The notes under the pieces: model-generated
Databases searched by the model: none
What the model was told of the DNA's origin: nothing
The model's input: only the letters and a program-made list of their open reading frames with translations
Shown here: positions 12,824 through 57,887 of the stretch, in pieces
Layout: every line of letters starts with the position of its first letter
Position numbering within the stretch: position 1 is the stretch's first letter
Translations under genes and position numbers: made by a program
Source of the DNA: Terriglobia bacterium
GTDB lineage: Bacteria; Acidobacteriota; Terriglobia; Bryobacterales; Bryobacteraceae
DNA length: 64,000 nucleotides
Assembly: GCA_020073345.1 (NCBI GenBank)
Contig: JAIQFI010000032.1
Coordinates: forward strand, 1-64,000
Direction of reading: 5' to 3'

Positions 12824-13789
12824 CTACCTGGCGGGCGTGGACTGCCCTTGCAACGTTTCGCGCAGCTGCAACGTCGAAAGCCCCAGGGCCACCGCGTTGC
12901 CGAAGGTGGCGAGCGCCGCCCGCCGTTCGTCATCCAGCCGTTCGGTCTCCGGGAACCGGATGCTCAACAGTCCCGATACCTCGCCGCGAACCGCCAGGGG
13001 CACACATGCGTAGGGCCCGTCAGATTCTGCCCTGAAGTGGTGGCATACCGTCCCGGCGCCGGGTTCGTGCATGCCGCCGCGGCGAAGCGCCCAGCAGTCT
13101 TCGATGGCGAAATCCGCCTTCATCCATTCGCCTTCATTCAGGCTATTTCCGCCCCATTCGGTGGTCGTCTCCAGCAGTTCTCGGGCGCCCGCGGCGGGGA
13201 CGGCGAGTGCGCCACTGGTGCCCGGAAATAGTTCGGTGGCGGCCAGGGCGATGAAGGGGTAAGCTTCCTCGCGGGAATTGCAGGCCTGCAGCGTATCGCC
13301 CAGATTCTTGAGGACCTGCACTTCGCGCCGCTGCCGCTCCAGTTGGGACACGGCCGCGCCCGCTTCGGCGTGTAGCCGTATCCGTTCTTCATCGCGCTGC
13401 TTGTGGTCCGTGATATCGATGTTGCACCCGATCCATTCGCGGATGGCGCCGTTGCCGGCGGGCACCGGTGCGGCACGAATCGAAAACCATCGGTATTCCC
13501 CATCCCGCCGGCGCAGCCGCCATTCGGTTTCGTAAGGCGCATTTCGCGACGCCGCGCGCGTCCAGGCTGAGACAGCTTCTTGGCGGGAATCCGGATCGAC
13601 GGCGGCGAGCCAACCGCTGCCCTCGATTTCCTCGCTATTCTGTCCGGTAAAGGCTCGCCAGCCAGGCTGGTCTTCGATCACCTGGCCGCTGGCGTCGGTG
13701 GTCCACACGATTTGGGCGATAGCCGCCAGCAGCGTGCGGTAGCGTTGCTCGCTGAGCCACAAGCCCTCCACCGTGCCCGGATTGGTCAT
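12824..13789 (-). CDS. PAS-GAF sensor protein without output domain
   Basis: 321 residues. A PAS/PAC domain (about 15-135; WLAAVDPDSR then IREWIGCNIDITDHKQ) is followed by a short coiled coil and a GAF domain (about 165-310). The GAF carries CWALRRGGMHE and, about 14 residues on, CHHF, a cysteine/histidine pattern also present in the neighbouring diguanylate cyclase. There is no kinase, GGDEF, EAL or DNA-binding domain, so the signal must pass through protein contacts. Its ATG overlaps the stop of the upstream diguanylate cyclase (ATGA at 13786-13789), so the two are made together and probably work as partners. Confidence 0.8.
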   Translation of the reverse strand: MTNPGTVEGLWLSEQRYRTLLAAIAQIVWTTDASGQVIEDQPGWRAFTGQNSEEIEGSGWLAAVDPDSRQEAVSAWTRAASRNAPYETEWRLRRRDGEYRWFSIRAAPVPAGNGAIREWIGCNIDITDHKQRDEERIRLHAEAGAAVSQLERQRREVQVLKNLGDTLQACNSREEAYPFIALAATELFPGTSGALAVPAAGARELLETTTEWGGNSLNEGEWMKADFAIEDCWALRRGGMHEPGAGTVCHHFRAESDGPYACVPLAVRGEVSGLLSIRFPETERLDDERRAALATFGNAVALGLSTLQLRETLQGQSTPAR

Positions 13790-15300
13790 CCCGGCGGCGC
13801 TCCGGCGGCGAATACGCTCACTTGATCCCGGCCACTGTGTTTGGCCGAGTAAAGCGCGCTGTCGGCAGCCCTGATGAGATCTTCAGAGGTGATGAGATCC
13901 TCGGACGTCGCGCCGTGATCGGGCCACTGCGCCACGCCGATCGACACCGAAGCCGCGGGCAGGATCCGGCCTTCAAAGCGGCACTCCATCGTCTTGACCT
14001 CGGCGCGCATGCGGTCGAGTCGTTCCGACACCTGGCGTAAGCCGGTATCGGGCAGGACCAGCACGAATTCATCGCCGCCGTAGCGGCAAACGATATCGCT
14101 GGCGCGCAGCCTTTTCATGAAGAATTCCGCCAGAGCTTTCAGCAGAACATCGCCGGCGTGGTGGCTATAAGTATCGTTGAACGACTTGAAACCGTCGATA
14201 TCCAGCATGGCCACGCACAGGGGCGTCTGATGGCGGGCGGATCGCGACAACTCCCGCCGCAGTGTTTCATCCAGATAGTTACGGTTGAACAGACCCGTCA
14301 GCGGGTCCCGGATGGCCTGTGCACGCAGCGCATCGCGAAGTTTCAAGCTGGACAGCGAGAGCTTGATCACCTCGCCGAACATGGTGAGCAACTGGCGTTG
14401 TTGCGGTTCCAGGGATTCTCCCGGCGCGCTGCGGAGATTCAGCAGGCCCAGCAAATCGCCGCGCACCGAGAGTGGCAGGCAGATATAGGGGCCAGGGGGC
14501 GCGGATTCGAAATGGCGGCAGCTTTGCAGCGCACCCGGCTCGGCGACCTCCTGCATCTGCCCGCGGCGCAGCGCCCAGCAATCGTCCAGCAGGAAGCTCG
14601 CAGCCATGCGCGGTTCGGTCCCCCATTCCACGGCGGCTTCCATCTGATGGGCCCGGCTGACCGATACTGCCAGCGCACCGCTGGCTCGGGGCAACAGTTG
14701 CGCCGCGACGGAGCCGATGATGGGATAGGCTTCCTGCTGAGAGTTGCAGGCCTGCAGGACTTCGTATAGATCGTTGATCTGCTGGATCTCCGCTTCGCGC
14801 TGCTTCAACTCCTCGGCGTGGATCTTCGTGTCGGCGTGGAGCCGGGCCAGCTCGTCTTCGCGCAGCTTCTGCTGGGTCACGTCGTGGGCGATCACAACCA
14901 CGCCTGCAGCCTCGTTTTGCCGGTTGCGGTAAGGGGCGGCATTGCACAGGAGATGGGTGAGCTGGCCGGACGCGTGGCGTATCGCCAGCAGATACCCGGT
15001 AATCAACCCCCGGGAGAAGACCTCGCGCTGGCCCGCACGCGCCAGCTCCGGATCGGTGAAATGGCCTGCGAACTCGCTTCCAATGATCTGCTCGAGGGAG
15101 AAGCCGGTGACGCTGAGGAACGCCCGGTTGACATCCGTGATCCGGCCGTTGATAGCCACCGCAATCAGCGGGTCGGGGCAGGCTTCGATCAGGCTGCGGT
15201 TGTACTGCGCCAGGTCTTGGGCCGTTTCAGACGGCGCGATAGCTTCAGACGGCGCGATAGCTTCAGACCGCACGATGGCCTCAGGCGGCACCCCTCCCAT
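13786..15300 (-). CDS. PAS-GAF-GGDEF diguanylate cyclase
   Basis: 504 residues. After a short repetitive N-terminus come a PAS domain (about 35-160), a GAF domain (about 180-325) and a GGDEF domain (about 335-500). The active site YGGDEFVLVL is intact, and RASD five residues before it is a complete product-inhibition I-site, so the protein should make cyclic di-GMP under feedback control. The GAF has CWALRRGQMQE and CRHF, close to the paralogous GAF in the next gene. The N-terminal repeat (SEAIAP units) is encoded by 18-bp tandem repeats. It starts 6 bases after the Hsp20-like gene stop and overlaps the PAS-GAF gene downstream, making a three-gene operon. Confidence 0.92.
   Translation of the reverse strand: MGGVPPEAIVRSEAIAPSEAIAPSETAQDLAQYNRSLIEACPDPLIAVAINGRITDVNRAFLSVTGFSLEQIIGSEFAGHFTDPELARAGQREVFSRGLITGYLLAIRHASGQLTHLLCNAAPYRNRQNEAAGVVVIAHDVTQQKLREDELARLHADTKIHAEELKQREAEIQQINDLYEVLQACNSQQEAYPIIGSVAAQLLPRASGALAVSVSRAHQMEAAVEWGTEPRMAASFLLDDCWALRRGQMQEVAEPGALQSCRHFESAPPGPYICLPLSVRGDLLGLLNLRSAPGESLEPQQRQLLTMFGEVIKLSLSSLKLRDALRAQAIRDPLTGLFNRNYLDETLRRELSRSARHQTPLCVAMLDIDGFKSFNDTYSHHAGDVLLKALAEFFMKRLRASDIVCRYGGDEFVLVLPDTGLRQVSERLDRMRAEVKTMECRFEGRILPAASVSIGVAQWPDHGATSEDLITSEDLIRAADSALYSAKHSGRDQVSVFAAGAPPG
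15226..15279 (-). repeat. Three 18-bp tandem repeats inside the diguanylate cyclase gene
   Basis: On the plus strand the unit TTCAGACGGCGCGATAGC occurs exactly at 15226-15243 and 15244-15261, with a third copy at 15262-15279 that has three changes and a further decayed copy after it. They encode the hexapeptide SEAIAP near the N-terminus of the GGDEF protein. Copy number is likely to vary between strains. Confidence 0.85.
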
Positions 15301-15306
15301 CCGGAT

Positions 15307-15744
15307 TCACACGGCGGCCGGCTCTCGCTCCCGGCTTCGTCGGACAGCGGTTACGAACAAGGTCCCATTGTCCAGCCTGGCGGTGGTCCGGTCCACGTCG
15401 ATCGGCTCTGGTAACTCGATGGTCCGCAGCAGGGTCTTCTGGCCCCTCTTGTTTTCCGATGCGGCTTTCACCACCAGTGAGGCGGGCAAGGCAGTGACGT
15501 GAATGTCGCGGGCGTCGTACCCTTGGGCCGGCACGCGGATCTCGAACTTGCCGTCCCGCGCCACTAACACCGATTCGGGCGTCAGGATGAGCTCCCGCTC
15601 GGCATCCAGCCAGTCGTCGACGTCACGTCCATCACCCCCTCCCCGGCTTTCGAAGAGGTAATAGGCCAGTTGGCGGATCTGTTCTGTAAGGTTCTCATTA
15701 TCGGCTGAGATGGCAGCCGCCTTCTCCACCGGAATGCGGGTCAC
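15307..15744 (-). CDS. DUF2934 plus Hsp20/alpha-crystallin fusion protein
   Basis: 145 residues. Residues about 20-56 match DUF2934 (IRQLAYYLFESRGGGDGRD then DWLDAEREL), a short helical element common in Acidobacteriota. Residues about 57-140 are a compact alpha-crystallin domain (FEIRVPAQGYDARDIHVTAL, LPEPIDVDRTTARLDNGTL) that keeps the small heat-shock protein strands, but the usual long N-terminal arm and C-terminal IXI tail are missing. A chaperone role under stress is likely, perhaps targeted by the DUF2934 part. It heads the operon with the diguanylate cyclase and PAS-GAF genes and is divergent from the sensor kinase at 15950. Confidence 0.82.
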   Translation of the reverse strand: MTRIPVEKAAAISADNENLTEQIRQLAYYLFESRGGGDGRDVDDWLDAERELILTPESVLVARDGKFEIRVPAQGYDARDIHVTALPASLVVKAASENKRGQKTLLRTIELPEPIDVDRTTARLDNGTLFVTAVRRSREREPAAV

Positions 15745-15949: not shown

Positions 15950-18181
15950 ATGGGAACCGTGTCGGCATCGGGTGTCAAAGCTGCCGCGAGGCCGCCCGCA
16001 CGCCCGCCGTGTCCTCCCACCAGCCAATGGAGCGCGTTCGTCTCCTTCGGCGCGGCGTTTTCGGCCATCATCGGACTCCTGGGCCTGACCGGCTGGATGT
16101 TGGACGTGCCGGTCCTGAAAAGCGGGCTGCCGGGCATGGTTCAGATCAAGGCGAATACGGCCATTTGCCTGATCCTGCTGGGCGCCTCGCTGTGGCTGCG
16201 GCGGAAGGCCAATGAGCAGACCCGAGGGCAAAATTTCGCCGGCCAGTTGATGGCGGGCATGGCCGCAGCTATCGGCCTGGTCAGTTTTGGAGAATACCTC
16301 TTCGGTTGGGACCTGGGCATCGATCAGTTGCTGTTTGCGGACAGCCCGCGAGAAGCGATCCGCAGCGTTGCCCAGGGGTTGATGGCGCCGGTGAACGCCC
16401 TTAATTTTTACTTCCTCGGACTGGCGCTGATTCTTCTCAGTTGGACCACGCTCCACGGGGTCTGGCCGAGCCAGATGCTTTCCTTTACGGCCGGGCTGAT
16501 CTCTCTGTTCAATTTGCTGGATTTCATCCTGGTGCCCCATGATCTCCACACCTACACTTCCTTGCCGGCCGCGGTTGCGCTCGCGGTCTTGTCTCTAGCC
16601 GTAATGTGCGCCCGCCCGCAGTTTGGTTACGGCGCGTTGCCTCGCGGTTCGGAGCAGCAGAACTCCATCATCCGCAGGTGGTTCTTCCAGGGTTTCGCGG
16701 AGCAGCACACTCAGCCCCTGCGCTACGGCGGGGCAGTGGTCATGGTCGTGGTTGCGGCGATGGTACGTCGCGCGCTCGAACGGTCGCTCGGCGAAGTGTC
16801 GGCCTTCCTTCTTTTCTACCCCGCGACCTTGCTGGCGGCCGTGCTGGGCGGCCTGGGGCCAGGCATTCTCGCCACGGTACTTTCGGCGGCCATCGCTGGT
16901 TACTTCATCTTCGACCCACCTGGAATCGGGGTAGGCAGGCTCAGCGACGTGGCCAGCCTCACGGTCTTCTCGGCCACCGGAATCGCTATCGCCGCGCTCG
17001 CCGAGAACCTGGGCCGGACTCGCAGGCACGCAGCGGACAAGGTACGGAAGGCATCTCTGTACGCTCGCAGCCTGATCGAAGCCAGCCTGGACCCGTTGGT
17101 CACGATCAGCCCGGAAGGCAAGATCACCGACGTCAACCAAGCCACTGAGGAAGCGACCGGAGTCGCCCGTGCCGGCCTCGTCGGGACCGATTTCGCCGGC
17201 TACTTCACCGAACCCGAAAAGGCCCGCGCGGGATATCGGCAAGTGTTCAACCAGGGGCAGGTCCACGATTACCCCCTGGCGGTCCGCCACGTCTCCGGCA
17301 AGGTAATGGATGTGCTTTACCATGCCCGCCTCTATCGCGATGAGGGCGGAGCCGTGGAAGGAGTCTTCGCCGCCGCGCGCGACGTTACCGAACGCAAGCA
17401 GGCCGAACAGGAACTCTCTGTTTACCGCCAGCATCTGGAAGATCTGGTGGCCGAGCGCACGGCCGAAATCCAGACGGCGAACCAGCGTCTGGAGACCGCG
17501 AATCAGGAGCTCGAAACCTTCGCGTACTCGGTTTCCCACGATCTCCGCACGCCCCTGCGGGCGGTGGACGGGTTTTCGCGCATCCTGCTCGAAGACTACG
17601 CTCCCAAGCTTGACACGGAGGGCCAGCGCATCGTCACCGTGGTTCGCGAGGGGACCAAGAAGATGGCGCAGATGATCGACGACATCCTGGCCTTCTCCCG
17701 CGCGGGCCGGCTGGAACTCTCTATTCGCGCCATCGACATGGAAGAACTGGTCCGGGCGGCTCTGAAGGACCTGGAACCGGCTTTGGACGGCGCCAACATA
17801 AAGGTCGAAATCAAACCTCTGCCGGCCTCGCACGGTGACGCGTCCATGATCCAGCGGCTATGGACCAATCTGCTGGACAACGCCATCAAGTTTACGCGGC
17901 CCAAGCCTCAGGGCGTCATCGAAGTCGGCGCACAAAATGGCGAAAACGAAACCATCTACCACGTCAAGGACAACGGGGTCGGCTTTGATATGCAGTATGC
18001 CCACAAACTGTTCGGCGTGTTCCAGCGTTTGCATGCCCAGGATGAGTTCCCGGGCACGGGCATCGGGCTGGCCATCGTCAAACGCATTGTCGCGCGGCAC
18101 AGCGGGCGTGTGTGGGCCGAAGGCAAAGTCAACCAGGGCGCCAGCATCTATTTCGCTTTGCCGAACGGGGGCAAATCATGA
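15950..18181 (+). CDS. Membrane sensor histidine kinase with PAS domain
   Basis: ATG 15950 follows GGAGAAG at 15932-15938; the longer upstream frame has no family character. The 743-residue protein starts with a multi-helix membrane region (about 30-340). Its second half ([19 protein letters not shown]) resembles the DUF4118 membrane module of KdpD-type kinases. A PAS domain follows (about 365-480), then a coiled coil, HisKA with His530 in [10 protein letters not shown], and HATPase with [17 protein letters not shown] and GTGIGLAIV. The C-terminal half is of the phytochrome-like type that pairs with single-domain regulators. The stop overlaps the next gene (ATGA at 18178-18181). Confidence 0.93.
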
Positions 18182-18636
18182 TCGGAACGGAAAAAAACAA
18201 CATTAAAGCGCTGGATATCCTGCTGGTGGAGGACAACGCGACCGACGCCGAGCTGTGCATGCGCGCGCTCAAGAAGCACGGCCTGGCCAACAACATTCTC
18301 TGGGTGAAGGACGGGGCCGAGGCGCTCGACTTCGTGTTCCGGACCGGTGAGTACGCCGGGATCCCGAATGGGCTGAGGCCCAAAGTGATCCTGCTCGATC
18401 TGCGCCTGCCGAAAGTAAGCGGGATCGAGGTCCTGCGCAAGTTGAAGGCGGACGAACACGCCCGCCTGATTCCCATCGCCGTCCTGACATCCTCCAAGGA
18501 GGACAACGATCTGGAGGAGTGCTACCGGCTGGGCGTAAACAGCTATATCGCCAAGCCCGTGGAGTTCGACCAATTCATGGACACCATCGCGAATCTTGGC
18601 ATGTACTGGATGGTGATCAACAAGCTGCCTTCGTGA
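18178..18636 (+). CDS. Single-domain response regulator (Rcp1-like)
   Basis: 152 residues that contain only a receiver domain: [12 protein letters not shown] at the start, phospho-acceptor Asp74 in [12 protein letters not shown], and [13 protein letters not shown] with [11 protein letters not shown] at the end. This is the Rcp1-like group usually linked to bacteriophytochrome-type kinases. With no output domain it acts as a phosphorelay or allosteric partner. It overlaps the kinase upstream by 4 bases and the receiver/phosphatase protein downstream by 4 bases (GTGA at 18633-18636), so a relay kinase to regulator to phosphatase is the natural reading. Confidence 0.93.
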
Positions 18637-20399
18637 GCCTGACACAAAAAAATCTTCGAATTCTGCACCTGGAGGACATACCGGCTGACGTGGAGCTGGT
18701 AGAGAGGCAGTTGCGCGCCGCCGGATTGCCGTTGACCGTGCAACCCGTTGCGACCCGCGACGCGTTCGAACGGGCGCTCGATGAATTCCAACCCGATGTC
18801 GTGCTGGCCGACTATTCCCTGCCGGATTTCGATGGTCTCTCCGCCGTCCGCTTAGCCCGGCAAAAGGACCCCGATCTGCCGGTGATCCTGGTGACCGGGG
18901 CCCTGGGGGACGAAGCGGCGGTGACCGCCATCAAGGCCGGCGCGAATGATTTTGTCCTCAAAGACCGTTTGGCGCGGCTGCCTACGGCCGTGGAACGGGC
19001 TGTCGAAGAAGCCGAGCAATCCCGGGCCTGCAGACGGGCGGAAGAGGAAATCCGGACACTCAATGCCGAACTGGAGCGGCGGGTCGTCGCGCGGACCGCT
19101 GAACTACAGGCCGCCAACCGGCTCAAAGACGAGCTCATCCTAAGCGAGCGCGCCATCAGTGTGGAACTGGAGCGGGTGCGTTCGCGTGAAGTGGAGGTGG
19201 GGCTGCGCATCCAGCAGTCGCTTCTGCTGAGCCAGCCGCCGGATGTCCCGGGCCTCGAGATTGCGGCGGTCACCGTCCCCTCGCAGGGGATTGACGGCGA
19301 CTTCTACATTTTTCTCACCCATCCGAACCAGTCGCTGGACGTGATCGTGGGAGACGTCATGGGGAAAGGAATTTCCGCCGCCCTGCTGGGAGCAGCCACC
19401 AAGATCCAGTTCTTCAAAGCGCTCAACTATCTCCTGGCGGTCTCACGCGGCCAGCTTCCCCAACCCAAGGACATCGTCATGCTCGCGCACGCCGAGATCG
19501 TGCGCGACCTGATTGATCTCGAAAGCTTCGTGACTGTGTGCTACGCCCGGCTGGATCTGGATCGGCGCGTCCTGAGCATAGTGGACTGCGGCCACACCGG
19601 AATCGCTCATTGGCATGCTGTTACCGGGCGGTGCGAGGTCCTGCACGGCGACAGCCTGCCGCTGGGAATCCGCGAAGGCGAGATCTTCAACCAGATTTCG
19701 GCGCCGTTCGAACCCGGCGACGTGTTGCTTTTCTTCTCGGACGGAATCACGGAAGCGCGCAATGCTGTTGGAGAGTTGTTCGGGGTAGAGCGGCTCACCG
19801 CGCATGTTGAGGCGAACTCCCGGCTGGAGCCCGCCCTGCTCGCGGATTCCATTCGCCAGGCCGTCTCTGCGTTTGTGGGGCCCACGCGGCTGAGCGACGA
19901 CTTGACCAGCGTCGCGGTGCGGGTCAGGACCCAGCAAGCGCCCGAGGCGCACGCGGGCATGCAGATTCGCAGTAATTTGCGGGAACTGCGCCAAGCGCGC
20001 CATTTCGTGCGCCAGTTTTGCGGCGCACTACGCCATCCAGTTCCTGGCGAGGAGCTGGTCGACGCGCTCGAGCTGGCGGTGAGTGAGGCGGCCAGCAACA
20101 TCATGCGGCACGCCTACCATGGCCGTCCGGACCAGTGGATCCGCCTGGAAGCAGAAGCTCTTCCCGAGGTCATCACCGTGAGGCTCCTGCATCTCGGGGC
20201 CGGATTCGATCCGGCGACGCTGGCGCCCCCGGTGCTGGACGGCACGCGGGAGTCTGGGTTCGGAACCTACATCATCGACCGGAGCGTGGACCTTGTGCGG
20301 TACCACCGGGACGAGCATGGCCGGAGCTGCGTGTCGCTTATAAAACATCGCAATTCCGGAAAGGAAGGAGTGCACTCTGATGGAAATGGCAATCGATAG
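18633..20399 (+). CDS. Receiver-SpoIIE phosphatase-HATPase fusion (partner-switching regulator)
   Basis: Start is GTG 18633, overlapping the previous stop; 588 residues. Domains in order: receiver (1-125, Asp60 in [13 protein letters not shown]), coiled coil (about 130-190), SpoIIE/PP2C phosphatase (about 195-435, with [23 protein letters not shown] and [10 protein letters not shown]), and an RsbW-type HATPase (about 455-585, with [16 protein letters not shown]). It therefore joins in one chain a phosphatase that activates a STAS protein and a kinase-like domain that may bind or rephosphorylate it, all under receiver control. The STAS gene follows with a 20-base overlap. Confidence 0.92.
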
Positions 20400-20736
20400 A
20401 ATTGGCGACGTCGCGGCCGTGGCCGTGCCAGTGGACGAACTGGACGCGGGCAACGCCTCCGAGCTCAAGCGCGATATCGCGCCGGTGCTCCAGGCCAATA
20501 CCAAGGTGGTCCTCGATCTGAGCCGCGTGCGGTTTATGGACAGCTCGGGACTCGGGGCCATGCTCTCTTGCCTGCGGCAGCTCACCGCTAAGAAGGGCGA
20601 CCTGAAATTGTGCGGGATGTCCAAGCAGGTCCGCGGAGCCTTCGAGCTGGTGCGCCTGCACCGGATCTTCGACATTTATCCCGGTAAGGCGGAGGCCGTG
20701 CTCGCGTTTCAGTCCAAGCCCACGGGCGTCCTGTGA
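20380..20736 (+). CDS. STAS-domain anti-sigma factor antagonist
   Basis: 118 residues. The STAS fold is clear, with the phosphorylation loop FMDSSGLGAML (Ser55/Ser56) of SpoIIAA/RsbV proteins. When unphosphorylated, such proteins bind a partner kinase and release its target. The start overlaps the phosphatase gene by 20 bases and the stop overlaps the glycogen phosphorylase gene (GTGA at 20733-20736). It is the obvious substrate of the upstream phosphatase/HATPase protein. No sigma factor gene is in this operon, so the final output may not be transcriptional. Confidence 0.93.
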   Translation: MEMAIDRIGDVAAVAVPVDELDAGNASELKRDIAPVLQANTKVVLDLSRVRFMDSSGLGAMLSCLRQLTAKKGDLKLCGMSKQVRGAFELVRLHRIFDIYPGKAEAVLAFQSKPTGVL

Positions 20737-23219
20737 TCGCAGCGAACACGATAGACGCCAGGCCGGTCCCCGCCTGCTCGGTCGCGAGCCTTCAGGAGGC
20801 CATTGAGCGGCACGTCAGATACTCGCTAGGCAAGCTGTGGCGGGATCTGTCTCCGCGCGAGCTGTTTGTGGCCGTCGCGCTGGCCTGCCGGGATCGGATG
20901 GTCGAGCGCATGCTCGAAACCGAGGAGCGCTACCGGCGCGGCGATCTGAAGCGCCTGTACTATCTTTCGATCGAGTTCCTGCCGGGGCAATACCTGGGAA
21001 ACAATCTTCTGAATCTGGGCATTCGCGAGCAGTGCGGCGAAGCGCTGCGCAACCTGGGAGCAGACCTGGACGAGATTGAATCGAGCGAGCCGGATCTGGC
21101 GCTCGGAAACGGCGGTCTAGGGCGCTTGGCTGCGTGCCTGCTGGACTCGCTGGCGACGCTCGGATTGCCCGGCTACGGCTACGGCATCAACTACGAGTAC
21201 GGTCTCTTCAAGCAGGAGATCGATCGCGGATACCAGCGCGAAAAACCGGAAAATTGGCTGGGCCAGGGCACTCCCTGGCAGATCGCCCGCCCCGATAAGG
21301 CCTGCGTAGTGCCGATTCGGGGCCGCATCGAGCACAGCGTCGACCGCCGTGGCGGTTACAACCCCATGTGGATGGACTGGAAGGTCTTAATGGGTATCCC
21401 CTACGACGTGCCCATCGTGGGGTTCGGCGGGCAGACGGTAAATTTCCTGCGGCTGTACTCGGCGCGGTCCTCCCACGGCTTCGATATGCGCATCTTCAAT
21501 GCCGGTGACTATTTCAAGGCCGTGGAACAGAAGATCGCGTCCGAAACCGTTTCTAAAGTGCTGTATCCTCCGGATGCCCCGGGAGCCGGCTACGAGCTGC
21601 GCCTGGCTCAGGAATACTTCCTGGCAGCCTGCGCCCTGCGCGATATCGTTCGTAGATTTGAGCAAGGCCACAAAGATTGCCGCGATCTCGGAGCGCACGT
21701 CGCGATTCAATTGAATGACACGCATCCGGCACTGGCCGTTGCGGAGCTGATGCGCATTTTGATCGACGAGAAGAATCTGGAATGGGACGAAGCGTGGGCG
21801 GTCACGCAAGCCACCGTCGCGTATACCAATCACACGCTCGCACCCGAAGCGCTCGAGAAATGGCCGGTGGCGTTGCTGGAGGCGGTGGTCCCGCGCCACC
21901 TGCAGATCATCCTGGAGATCAACCGCCGTCTTCTGGACCGCGTCTCCGGGGTGTGGCCGGGACATACCGGGCTCTTGAGACGGATGTCGATCATCGAGGA
22001 ATCCGAGCCCAAGCAGGTACGAATGGCCCACCTGGCGATGGCGGGAAGCCATGCTATCAACGGCGTGTCACGGATTCACACCGAAGCCATCAAGACTTCG
22101 CTGGCGCCGGACTACTTTGAACTTTGGCCGGATCGGTTCCATAACGTGACCAATGGCATCAGCCCGCGGCGGTGGCTGCTTCGCGCGAATCCCGCGCTGG
22201 CGGCCTTGATCACCGCTGCCATCGGCGACGCCTGGATCACGGATCTGCCGCGGCTGAAGGCGCTGGAGCGCTATGCGGAGGACTCCGCGTTCCGGACCGA
22301 ATTCCGAGCCGTCAAGCGCGCCAATAAGGAGAAGCTGGCCAGGATCATCCAGGAACTCCACATCCGGGTGGATCCGGATTCGCTGTTCGACGTTCACGTG
22401 AAGCGAATCCATGCGTACAAACGCCAGCTGCTCAATGTGTTTCACATCGTCGACGAGTATCTTGCGTTGATCGAAGACGGCCGCCAGCCCGCGGCTCCTC
22501 GGGTCTACATCTTCGCCGGAAAGGCCGCGCCCGGCTACTGGTTCGCGCAGCAGGTCATCAAGTTGATCCACAATGTGGGGCGGGTGATCAATACCGATCC
22601 GCGGGCCCATTCCTGGATCAAGGTCGTGTTCCTGCCCGATTATCGCGTCTCTCTGGCGGAGCAGATCGTCCCCGCGGCCGATCTGAGCGAGCAGATTTCG
22701 ACAGCCGGAACGGAAGCCTCGGGAACCGGCAATATGAAGATGGCGCTCAACGGCGCCGTCACCATCGGCACGCTGGACGGCGCCACCATCGAAATCCGCG
22801 AAGCCGTGGGCGCGGAGAACATGTTCGTGTTCGGCCTCACTGCCGCCCAGGTGCGGGCCGCACGCGAGCCGTGCACTTATCGGCCTTGGGAGCATTACGA
22901 GCGCGACCCGCGCGTGAAGCGCGTGGTGGATGTCCTTTCCTCCAATCTGTTCTGTTCGGAGGAGCCTGCCCTGTTCGAATGGGTTAGGAAGTGTGTGCTC
23001 AATGGAAACGACGAGCACTTTCACCTGGCCGACTTCCGGTCTTACGCCGATGCCCAGGGGAAAGTAGGGCAGTCGTTCGGCGAGGCAGATCGCTGGACCC
23101 GCATGTCGATCCTGAATGTGGCGCGGACCGGGCCGTTCTCGAGTGATCGCACGGTGCTCGAGTATGCGCGCGATATCTGGGGAGTGCAGGCGCCCAGCCA
23201 GTCCATCGCCTGTAAATGA
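20733..23219 (+). CDS. glgP: Glycogen/maltodextrin phosphorylase
   Basis: 828 residues from GTG 20733, close to the 797-815 of the E. coli enzymes. The pyridoxal phosphate site EASGTGNMKMALNGA is intact with the Schiff-base lysine at residue 669. Other family signatures are YLSIEFLPGQYLGNNLLNLG, NGGLGRLAACLLDS, YGYGINYEYGLFKQ and VHVKRIHAYKRQLLN. It releases glucose-1-phosphate from the ends of alpha-1,4-glucans using phosphate. It is the last gene of a five-gene overlapping operon behind a sensor kinase and a partner-switching module, an unusual setting; no other glycogen gene (glgA, glgB, glgC, glgX) is nearby. Confidence 0.96.
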   Translation: MIAANTIDARPVPACSVASLQEAIERHVRYSLGKLWRDLSPRELFVAVALACRDRMVERMLETEERYRRGDLKRLYYLSIEFLPGQYLGNNLLNLGIREQCGEALRNLGADLDEIESSEPDLALGNGGLGRLAACLLDSLATLGLPGYGYGINYEYGLFKQEIDRGYQREKPENWLGQGTPWQIARPDKACVVPIRGRIEHSVDRRGGYNPMWMDWKVLMGIPYDVPIVGFGGQTVNFLRLYSARSSHGFDMRIFNAGDYFKAVEQKIASETVSKVLYPPDAPGAGYELRLAQEYFLAACALRDIVRRFEQGHKDCRDLGAHVAIQLNDTHPALAVAELMRILIDEKNLEWDEAWAVTQATVAYTNHTLAPEALEKWPVALLEAVVPRHLQIILEINRRLLDRVSGVWPGHTGLLRRMSIIEESEPKQVRMAHLAMAGSHAINGVSRIHTEAIKTSLAPDYFELWPDRFHNVTNGISPRRWLLRANPALAALITAAIGDAWITDLPRLKALERYAEDSAFRTEFRAVKRANKEKLARIIQELHIRVDPDSLFDVHVKRIHAYKRQLLNVFHIVDEYLALIEDGRQPAAPRVYIFAGKAAPGYWFAQQVIKLIHNVGRVINTDPRAHSWIKVVFLPDYRVSLAEQIVPAADLSEQISTAGTEASGTGNMKMALNGAVTIGTLDGATIEIREAVGAENMFVFGLTAAQVRAAREPCTYRPWEHYERDPRVKRVVDVLSSNLFCSEEPALFEWVRKCVLNGNDEHFHLADFRSYADAQGKVGQSFGEADRWTRMSILNVARTGPFSSDRTVLEYARDIWGVQAPSQSIACK

Positions 23220-30371: not shown

Positions 30372-31448
30372 ATGGGCCGATTTCGCCGGGCCTGCCTGTT
30401 TCTTGGAATGACGCTGGCCGCCTATGGCCAGCGCCCGATGTCCGTTCCCGATCTGGTCACCTTTATCCGGTCTTCCATCCAACTGCACAACGACGATCGC
30501 GCTGTGGCTGCTACGGTGCGGCGTCTCAAGCTGACCAGCCGGCTGGATGCGGGAACGGTAGAGGATCTGCAAGGCCTGGGAGCGGGTCCGCAGACTCTCG
30601 CCGCGCTGCGCGAGCTGATCGGCGCCAGCGCTAGTCTTCCCATCGCCGCGCCGGTTGTGCCTCCTCCGCAAGTCGTGATTCCTCCGCCCAGTCCGGCGGA
30701 ACTGAAAAAGATCCTGGCCGAAATCACCGAACGGGCGCTGGATTACACCAAGAGCCTGCCCAACTTTATTTGCGCGCAAGTCACCACGCGCAGTTTCGAT
30801 CCCTCCGGGACGGAATCCTGGCGCCAGGAAGACAAAGTCCAGGAGCAGCTCAGTTACGTGGACGGCAAGGAAGATTATAAGGTGGTGCTGGTGAACAATC
30901 TGCCGGTGACGAACATGAAACACGAGCAGTTGGGCGGGATCACTTCGTCGGGCGAGTTCGGAAGCATGCTGTACCAGATTTTTGCTCCGCAAACTCAGAC
31001 GCAATTCGACTGGGAACGCTGGGCGACGCTGCGCGGGCGGCGGATGTATGTGTTCAGCTTCCGGGTCCCGCAGTCCAATTCCGACTACAGCATTTACCAC
31101 CAACCTTCGGGCCGCACCATCGTCGCCGGATATCACGGGCTGGTTTACGCCGACGCGGAAAGCAAACAGGTCATGCGGATCAAGATGGACTGCGACGGCC
31201 TGGAGGCCTTCCCGATCAACCAGGTGTCCTTGACTCTGGATTACGCACCTACCAAGATCTCGGAACAGGATTTCGTGCTGCCGATGGCGGCCGAAATACG
31301 TTCACGCGAAGGCCGGAGGCTGGGTAAGAACGTAATCCAGTTCAGTCTGTACCGGAAGTTCAGCTCCGATGCGACCATCACGTTCGACACGCCGGATCCT
31401 ATTCCAGAGGATCAGCTCAAAGAGCAGCCCGCTCCCGGGAAGAGATAA
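30372..31448 (+). CDS. Secreted protein of unknown function (Acidobacteriota type)
   Basis: I choose ATG 30372 over 30363 because a TAAAAT hexamer at 30359-30364 overlaps the earlier ATG. The 358-residue product has a signal peptide (FLGMTLAAYGQ), a helical N-terminal part with a TVRRLKLTSRLD segment, a proline-rich linker (APVVPPPQVVIPPP) and a beta-rich domain starting LPNFICAQVTTRSFDPSG. The LPNFxC opening recurs, as I recall, in many uncharacterised Acidobacteriota secreted proteins. No catalytic motif is visible. It may share a role with the preceding DUF3108 gene, 34 bases upstream, and the STAS gene 16 bases downstream. Confidence 0.75.
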   Translation: MGRFRRACLFLGMTLAAYGQRPMSVPDLVTFIRSSIQLHNDDRAVAATVRRLKLTSRLDAGTVEDLQGLGAGPQTLAALRELIGASASLPIAAPVVPPPQVVIPPPSPAELKKILAEITERALDYTKSLPNFICAQVTTRSFDPSGTESWRQEDKVQEQLSYVDGKEDYKVVLVNNLPVTNMKHEQLGGITSSGEFGSMLYQIFAPQTQTQFDWERWATLRGRRMYVFSFRVPQSNSDYSIYHQPSGRTIVAGYHGLVYADAESKQVMRIKMDCDGLEAFPINQVSLTLDYAPTKISEQDFVLPMAAEIRSREGRRLGKNVIQFSLYRKFSSDATITFDTPDPIPEDQLKEQPAPGKR

Positions 31449-31464
31449 TAGTCCCATCGTCCCG

Positions 31465-31809
31465 ATGAGCCTGTCGATCGAACACAAAGAGATCGCGCCC
31501 GCCACACGCGTCATCACTCTAAGCGGGAATCTCTTACTGGGGCCGGGATGCACGGAACTGGAATTACTAGTGCCGCAGCTGGTGGAAGCGGGCGTGAGGA
31601 ACCTGGTGTTCGACCTGAGCGGAGTGACGCGGATCGATTCGACCGGTATCGGAAGGTTCATTGATACCTATGGCCGGCTCAAGAAATCGGGCGGCCAGAT
31701 GCGCCTGGCGGGAGCCGCCGGCGCGGTCCGGGATTCCTTCCGCCTGACGCGGCTGGATAGTGTCTTTTCCTTTTATCCAACCGTGGAAGCAGCCTGCCAG
31801 GGGATCTGA
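31465..31809 (+). CDS. STAS-domain anti-sigma factor antagonist
   Basis: 114 residues from ATG 31465. Key elements are VITLSGNLLLGPGCTELE and the phosphorylation loop RIDSTGIGRFIDTY with Ser59/Thr60, followed by LDSVFSFYPTVEAA at the C-terminus as in RsbV/SpoIIAA. It has no adjacent kinase or phosphatase gene. It is likely the partner of a remote RsbW-type kinase and of a SpoIIE phosphatase such as the one at 1956. Confidence 0.9.
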   Translation: MSLSIEHKEIAPATRVITLSGNLLLGPGCTELELLVPQLVEAGVRNLVFDLSGVTRIDSTGIGRFIDTYGRLKKSGGQMRLAGAAGAVRDSFRLTRLDSVFSFYPTVEAACQGI

Positions 31810-57485: not shown

Positions 57486-57887
57486 ATGGCTCTGGATATC
57501 GCTGAAAGCGTGCGCGAGGAAGTCGTCATTCTGACATTGAAGGGACGGCTGACGTTAGGCGAGTCCAACCTCGTGCGGGAACGGGTTACACAGCTGGCCG
57601 CGGCCGGGAAACACAACATCGTGGTGGATCTCGGCGCAGTGGACTACATCGATTCCACCGGGCTCGGCATCCTGGTGATCTGCTTTACATCGCTCAAGAA
57701 GCAGGGTGGCGCGCTCAAGCTGGTGAATCCGAACAAACGCAACGTTGAACTGCTGCTGCTGACCAAGCTGCACACGGTCTTCGAGGTGTTCAACGAGGTC
57801 CAGGATGCGGTGAACAGCTTCTTCCCCGATCGCCAGATCAAACACTTCGACATTCTGAGCTTCGTGCAACAACAGGATGAAAGTTAG
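57486..57887 (+). CDS. STAS-domain anti-sigma factor antagonist
   Basis: 133 residues from ATG 57486; TACACT at 57472-57477 is 8 bases upstream. The STAS motif is VDYIDSTGLGILVICF with Asp56-Ser57-Thr58. A C-terminal extension of about 20 residues after the fold (FFPDRQIKHFDILSFVQQQD) is unlike the two other STAS proteins here. Its regulators are not adjacent. Confidence 0.9.
   Translation: MALDIAESVREEVVILTLKGRLTLGESNLVRERVTQLAAAGKHNIVVDLGAVDYIDSTGLGILVICFTSLKKQGGALKLVNPNKRNVELLLLTKLHTVFEVFNEVQDAVNSFFPDRQIKHFDILSFVQQQDES

Follow-up and report, generated by a model that had tools for sequence, protein, structure and literature searches.

Among the closest described relatives of the operon reported here are partner switches with transcriptional regulators or enzymes as outputs. 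In the HsbR-HsbA system (HptB pathway) of Pseudomonas aeruginosa and in CrsR-CrsA of Shewanella, a REC-PP2C-HATPase protein fed by histidine kinases is paired with a cognate STAS protein. HsbA binds FlgM, HsbR interacts with RpoS (PMC6482189), and the partners of HsbA include an enzyme, the diguanylate cyclase HsbD (PMC5085249). The outputs given in the available text of these reports are FlgM/FliA, RpoS and a diguanylate cyclase, with no mention of glycogen phosphorylase (GlgP). In SiaABCD, also of P. aeruginosa, a partner switch has a co-encoded enzyme as its output, and SiaC activates this enzyme, SiaD, by direct binding (PMC8457831). In the icfG operon of Synechocystis PCC 6803, phosphatase, kinase and STAS proteins are joined to an alpha-glucan enzyme, isoamylase (slr1857), with a link to glucose metabolism (PMC12329169). 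STAS control of enzymes is thus already described, though the accessible text of these sources does not extend it to GlgP. We analysed a 64,000-nucleotide stretch of a Terriglobia bacterium genome (the window) in which a partner switch of this kind is encoded directly ahead of GlgP. We conclude that the operon holds a partner switch resembling HsbR-HsbA, new in the enzyme that is encoded with it, and that the linkage of GlgP with the STAS cassette is real, recurrent and specific.

The operon is a + strand run of five overlapping genes, which encode a sensor kinase, a single receiver, a REC-SpoIIE-HATPase protein, a STAS protein and GlgP (Table 1). An earlier note, made from the sequence alone, had named these families and given overlaps of 4-20 bases; Pfam and NCBIfam profiles, on which the family names of the window genes rest, agreed for all five. 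The overlaps are, in order, 4 bases (ATGA, kinase/receiver), 4 bases (GTGA, receiver/phosphatase), 20 bases and 4 bases (GTGA, STAS/GlgP). The kinase frame is open from 15788, with an ATG start at 15950. GlgP is full-length, residues 17-818 matching TIGR02093 at 1074.3 bits (cut-off 552.9). The partner-switch module is complete, as had been proposed: a SpoIIE (PP2C) phosphatase, an RsbW/SpoIIAB-type HATPase and a STAS protein are co-encoded, and the Pfam and NCBIfam profiles found no sigma factor among the five genes. Switches of this kind mostly act on transcription factors, the classical output being a SigB/SigF-type sigma factor that is as a rule encoded alongside. REC, PP2C and HATPase domains lie in one protein with an adjoining STAS gene, as in HsbR-HsbA, and the icfG-type content of STAS, PP2C, kinase and an alpha-glucan enzyme gene is also present, via GlgP. 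With two systems as comparable as these (PMC6482189, PMC12329169), the earlier statement that no described system resembles the operon was too strong.

These systems also differ from the operon. The icfG enzyme is a debranching enzyme and not GlgP, the kinase Slr1861, a protein of its own, is an anti-SigC factor, and no link between STAS and isoamylase is reported in the text available (PMC12329169). SiaC is a DUF1987 protein and SiaD a diguanylate cyclase. Sets of REC-SpoIIE, STAS and HATPase genes on proteobacterial plasmids have STAS proteins 34-40% identical to that of the window, directly behind REC-SpoIIE in 3/3 annotated records; they differ in having the HATPase as a separate gene, with STAS between REC-SpoIIE and HATPase, and in lying near cellulose synthase, bcsS or other polysaccharide genes. 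In a fourth related record, from Nostoc, the stretch carries no annotation. HPr is a protein of the phosphotransferase system, from a family unrelated to STAS. It offers a likeness as a small phosphorylatable protein that regulates E. coli glycogen phosphorylase, and it is the only protein that the available text of a broad survey of alpha-glucan enzymes in bacteria names as regulating bacterial glycogen phosphorylase; STAS is not mentioned in that text (PMC11046441). Our literature search found no paper joining glycogen phosphorylase with partner switching; glycogen phosphorylase and anti-anti-sigma co-occurred only in a methanogen genome paper, in separate sections of the text available.

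The cassette was searched for in relatives. A first scan of genome contigs with a two-row STAS alignment and two N-terminal peptide patterns confirmed four loci, and the order SpoIIE-HATPase, STAS, GlgP was found in 4/4. A six-row STAS model, run against 297 genomes from the phylum and 250 from the order, gave among the best matches listed two strong score groups, clade A (at least 190 bits) and clade B (about 108-162 bits). The order set contained 12 clade-A places, and GlgP lay directly downstream on the same strand in 11 of them. With G088 from the phylum set, where the order is GlgP, SpoIIE-HATPase, STAS, and with L023, a record additional to both sets, there are 14 distinct clade-A loci; L022, L024 and L025 are contigs of G426, G366:C19 and G536 and were each counted once. 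GlgP is directly downstream of STAS in 12 of the 14, upstream in one and not adjacent in one. The conserved unit is therefore smaller than five genes and consists of SpoIIE-HATPase, STAS and GlgP. Of the gene order that the earlier note proposed to look for in relatives, this core recurs, and the exact five-gene set was found only in the window. L023 has a similar order (HAMP kinase, receiver-sigma-54-activator, CHASE3-SpoIIE-HATPase, STAS, GlgP), in which the kinase and regulator are unrelated to those of the window; at L136 and L163 the SpoIIE frame runs off the contig, which leaves any upstream genes out of view. Among the clade-B matches listed there are 15 places in the order set, with a SpoIIE-HATPase protein within 1.5 kb in 12/15 and GlgP in 0/15.

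The genome of the window (6.23 Mb, 98 contigs, 97.5% complete, 0.35% contaminated), searched with the Phosphorylase, STAS, HATPase_c_2 and SpoIIE profiles, has a second cluster. The genome encodes two full-length GlgPs of the window type (>1000 bits; other Phosphorylase matches were <80 bits), and both sit directly behind a STAS gene, the genome total being eight STAS matches (E 0.001). GlgA is also present. The copies in the window and on contig C41 (L017) are 77% identical in STAS, 75% in GlgP and 60% in the SpoIIE-HATPase part, which in the second cluster is the C-terminal part of a 1592-amino-acid protein with an N-terminal sensor region. Window kinase residues 8-243 and 253-479 show 41% and 37% identity to this N-terminal part. 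One kind of sensor thus works through a two-component relay in the window and as part of the phosphatase itself on C41. A chance neighbourhood is ruled out by this second copy together with the surveys of relatives.

We also examined the surroundings of 131 GlgP loci, taken from the order and phylum sets and from L023; many lie on contigs that end close by, and the profiles used had been trained on loci of the same analysis. A same-strand STAS gene lay within 5 kb at 19/131 and an opposite-strand one at one more, where chance would give roughly 1.3% on either strand (8 STAS matches per 6.23 Mb; one genome). The 19 comprise 12 clade-A loci with STAS directly upstream, L114, L117, four loci of a second layout (L126, L127, L128, L130) and L179, a weak case. 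Five short GlgP fragments outside the 131 had no STAS match in them. At L117 (10019-12795, G176), STAS is directly upstream of a distant GlgP, and no phosphatase or HATPase was found nearby.

A GlgP tree was built by a quick method from 122 of the 131 rows, after removal of nine with <600 amino acids; L191 was among those too short to be placed. In this tree the GlgPs linked to clade-A STAS fall into a single clade with a Shimodaira-Hasegawa-like approximate likelihood ratio (SH-aLRT) support of 100, made up of 11 linked members and the unlinked L159, and L114 stands next to it (86). The second-layout GlgPs form a separate clade (4/4 rows, SH-aLRT 100). In all four of their loci a nucleotidyltransferase gene and STAS come after GlgP; three (L126, L127, L130) also have REC-SpoIIE in between and a separate HATPase behind, and an inorganic pyrophosphatase gene occurs at L126 and L127. 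Two GlgP lineages are thus tied to partner-switch genes, each in its own way. An isoamylase-like gene adjoins GlgP in clade-A loci L023, L137, L138, L139 and L163; it also adjoins other GlgPs and was dropped as a special mark of clade A.

The earlier note had described GlgP as fused to the phosphorelay by overlapping genes. The gene overlap was borne out, and no STAS-GlgP fusion protein was seen among the loci examined. One candidate, L118 (1563-7697, G054), has a GlgP frame of 2044 amino acids and was rejected, Phosphorylase being its sole Pfam domain; GlgP is C-terminal in it, with about 1300 further residues lacking a Pfam match.

Table 1. Genes of the operon and the divergent cyclase gene, in window coordinates.
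Feature	Coordinates	Strand	Basis and remarks
Membrane sensor histidine kinase	15950..18181	+	N-terminal membrane region, DUF4118, PAS, HisKA, HATPase_c (Pfam)
Single-domain response regulator	18178..18636	+	Response_reg 68.8 bits (Pfam); Rcp1-like by eye
REC-SpoIIE (PP2C)-HATPase_c_2 phosphatase protein	18633..20399	+	Pfam; GTG start; HsbR-like plan
STAS protein, acceptor motif DSSGLG	20380..20736	+	STAS 71.1 bits; TIGR00377 over cut-off
Glycogen phosphorylase GlgP (GT35)	20733..23219	+	Phosphorylase 1007.9 bits; GTG start
PAS-GAF-GGDEF diguanylate cyclase	13786..15300	-	Divergent upstream of operon; Pfam; 75.5% identical in L124

Three - strand genes at 12824-15744 (PAS-GAF, PAS-GAF-GGDEF and HSP20/DUF2934) are kept with the cassette in G366:C8, and the PAS of the cyclase resembles that of the kinase. 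Two further STAS genes of the window, at 31369-31809 and 57486-57887, have by eye no partner-switch neighbour among the listed genes.

The residues expected of a STAS acceptor are intact. The DSSGLG motif is present in 14/14 clade-A and 18/18 clade-B STAS rows, and the window STAS matches SpoIIAA (1th8_B) at E 7.1e-10 with FMDSSGLG identical. In the HATPase, the N-box Glu and Asn are retained in 34/34 rows (7 of the 40 searched loci gave no row). The G1-box Asp of a HATPase reads adenine. At this position, placed by alignment to RsbW through a weak match (E 0.008), the fused HATPases of clade A have His in 13 rows and Tyr in one (n=14), and those of clade B have His in 14, Tyr in two and Asp in one (n=17). 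Overall, His or Tyr replaces the Asp in 30/31 rows of SpoIIE-fused domains; the Asp is retained in 3/3 separate HATPase genes and in the two other strong HATPase matches of this genome. Given its His, the window HATPase may not be a normal kinase. Its nucleotide binding may be unusual, or its main role may be to hold the STAS protein, and a kinase acting in trans on STAS is possible; the genome has a stand-alone RsbW-type protein on contig C40. SpoIIE-fused HATPases are possibly, judged by these residues, a family of non-classical or pseudo-kinases.

The conservation of the core arrangement in relatives suggests control of GlgP by the switch. We propose, with a probability of roughly 0.4, that the STAS switch controls GlgP post-translationally, probably by binding. 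In favour of this we count the second cluster with its different sensor layout and shared core, the position of GlgP in the 14 clade-A loci, the two GlgP clades tied to partner-switch genes, the frequency of STAS genes near GlgP, the lack of a sigma over the SigB/F/G cut-off among the eight region-3 sigmas found, the presence of GlgA, and the precedents of SiaC-SiaD and of HPr. The cassette would then be a signalling set dedicated to glycogen breakdown. The membrane kinase would sense a signal and phosphorylate the receiver proteins, and receiver phosphorylation would set the SpoIIE phosphatase against a kinase, either its own HATPase or an RsbW-type protein in trans. This balance would set the phosphorylation of STAS on the Ser of DSSG. 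One state of STAS would act on GlgP, most likely by binding, and raise or lower the release of glucose-1-phosphate; the HATPase domain would hold STAS in its other state. The signal, the direction of control, the phosphorylation and any contact with GlgP are the parts that we infer. A more detailed version is doubtful when taken as a whole: STAS would bind GlgP and set its activity by serine phosphorylation, giving a two-component sensor control over a central metabolic enzyme without transcription; the fused HATPase, which lacks the G1 Asp, would mainly hold STAS and not be a classical kinase; and in relatives the module family would have further carbon outputs (exopolysaccharide and acetyl-CoA synthetase). 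The earlier suggestion of a metabolic enzyme as output gains from GlgP being the most constant neighbour and from STAS-enzyme control being known elsewhere, and loses in that the five-gene order is not generally conserved.

Several observations weigh against control of GlgP by the switch. The locus closest to the window block, G366:C8 (L124, same genus), is syntenic with the window and has the same kinase, receiver, phosphatase and STAS block, with identities of 74% (PAS-GAF), 75.5% (cyclase), 67% (HSP20-like), 68% (kinase), 82% (receiver), 75% (SpoIIE-HATPase) and 89% (STAS), and it has no GlgP beside STAS and no remnant of one (best tblastn E 0.18). DNA similarity to the window stops where the STAS gene ends. 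A GlgP 22 kb off on this contig belongs to another clade and is 48% identical. At 111/131 GlgP loci no STAS gene lies within 5 kb, many of these contigs ending nearby. STAS constraint relative to its phosphatase is the same in clade A and clade B (log-identity ratio 0.60 vs 0.61), so no extra constraint on clade-A STAS was found in this comparison. The clade-A GlgPs carry only eight diagnostic positions and a one-residue insertion, which form no pattern, and no docking site therefore stands out. The L023 cassette sits behind a kinase/sigma-54-activator pair, which could mean transcriptional control, and cassettes of the sister clade B adjoin exopolysaccharide or acetyl-CoA synthetase genes.

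Matching copy numbers of STAS and GlgP within clade A were considered and set aside, as they mostly reflect the linkage itself. G366 has two STAS and two GlgP, and its unlinked GlgP (C21), 74% identical to that of the window, groups with the C19/C41 type and is therefore not the orthologous counterpart of the C8 STAS. In G536, where another clade-A-like GlgP fragment lies at the end of a contig (L269), the count may be one STAS and two GlgP.

Judged by eye from their first 170 residues, the clade-B neighbours that were read resemble genes for sugar transferases, export, glycosyltransferases or acetyl-CoA synthetase (L132, L134). The module family therefore lies beside several kinds of carbon-related genes, GlgP among them. 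Sister STAS/SpoIIE-HATPase genes at L115, L119-L121, L123, L132-L134 and L143 lie near exopolysaccharide-, nucleotidyltransferase- or acetyl-CoA synthetase-like genes (by eye); the L143 nucleotidyltransferase was also matched by tblastn. L120 (4676-7081) is a natural single-protein fusion of GAF, SpoIIE, HATPase and STAS.

A different output would leave GlgP as a passenger. The cassette could feed a remote transcription factor, either by reaching a FliA/WhiG-type sigma through FlgM or by binding an RpoD-like sigma with the HATPase domain, in the manner of HsbR-HsbA, with GlgP only co-transcribed. HsbA-FlgM binding and the HsbR-RpoS interaction (PMC6482189) give a precedent, as does Slr1861 as anti-SigC factor (PMC12329169). 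The genome has FlgM (49.2 bits) and eight region-3 sigmas, all scanned, four over the FliA/WhiG cut-off and four RpoD-like (two over an RpoD cut-off), and 0/8 reached the SigB/F/G cut-off; with FlgM and such sigmas at hand, a remote sigma target is possible. We nevertheless regard this explanation as unlikely, because no sigma or FlgM gene is among the five genes of the window (other cassettes were not scanned) and because co-transcription alone poorly explains GlgP directly behind STAS in 12/14 loci, or the second layout. It is improbable, and the least probable of the explanations considered, that the output is the neighbouring diguanylate cyclase with GlgP incidental, as the examples of HsbA-HsbD and SiaC-SiaD (PMC5085249, PMC8457831) would have it. 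In G366:C8, which has no adjacent GlgP, the divergent PAS-GAF-GGDEF gene is retained at 75.5% identity; a probe with the cyclase gave no GGDEF match in the 12 other cassette loci searched (several short), only the PAS region in seven, and all 12 have GlgP beside the cassette.

The operon might also set GlgP abundance only, through a shared signal-responsive promoter, so that STAS and GlgP never meet. The overlaps suggest translational coupling, and a pattern scan gave 4 terminator-like sites and no promoter-like site, which does not exceed shuffled sequence, so that an internal promoter or terminator was discarded as a candidate; the position of the L023 cassette behind a kinase/sigma-54-activator pair points the same way. 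GlgP and STAS stay together while the sensors vary, and gene order varies as well (G088, second layout), which argues against this explanation; we rate it a little below a remote sigma target and above the cyclase. Post-translational control of GlgP by the STAS switch is the reading that we prefer. The clade-wide linkage and the natural sensor variants make STAS-GlgP control directly testable with purified proteins. If it is true, the STAS-to-enzyme principle known from diguanylate cyclases would also apply in core carbon metabolism, and sensory kinases would reach the breakdown of glycogen reserves directly.

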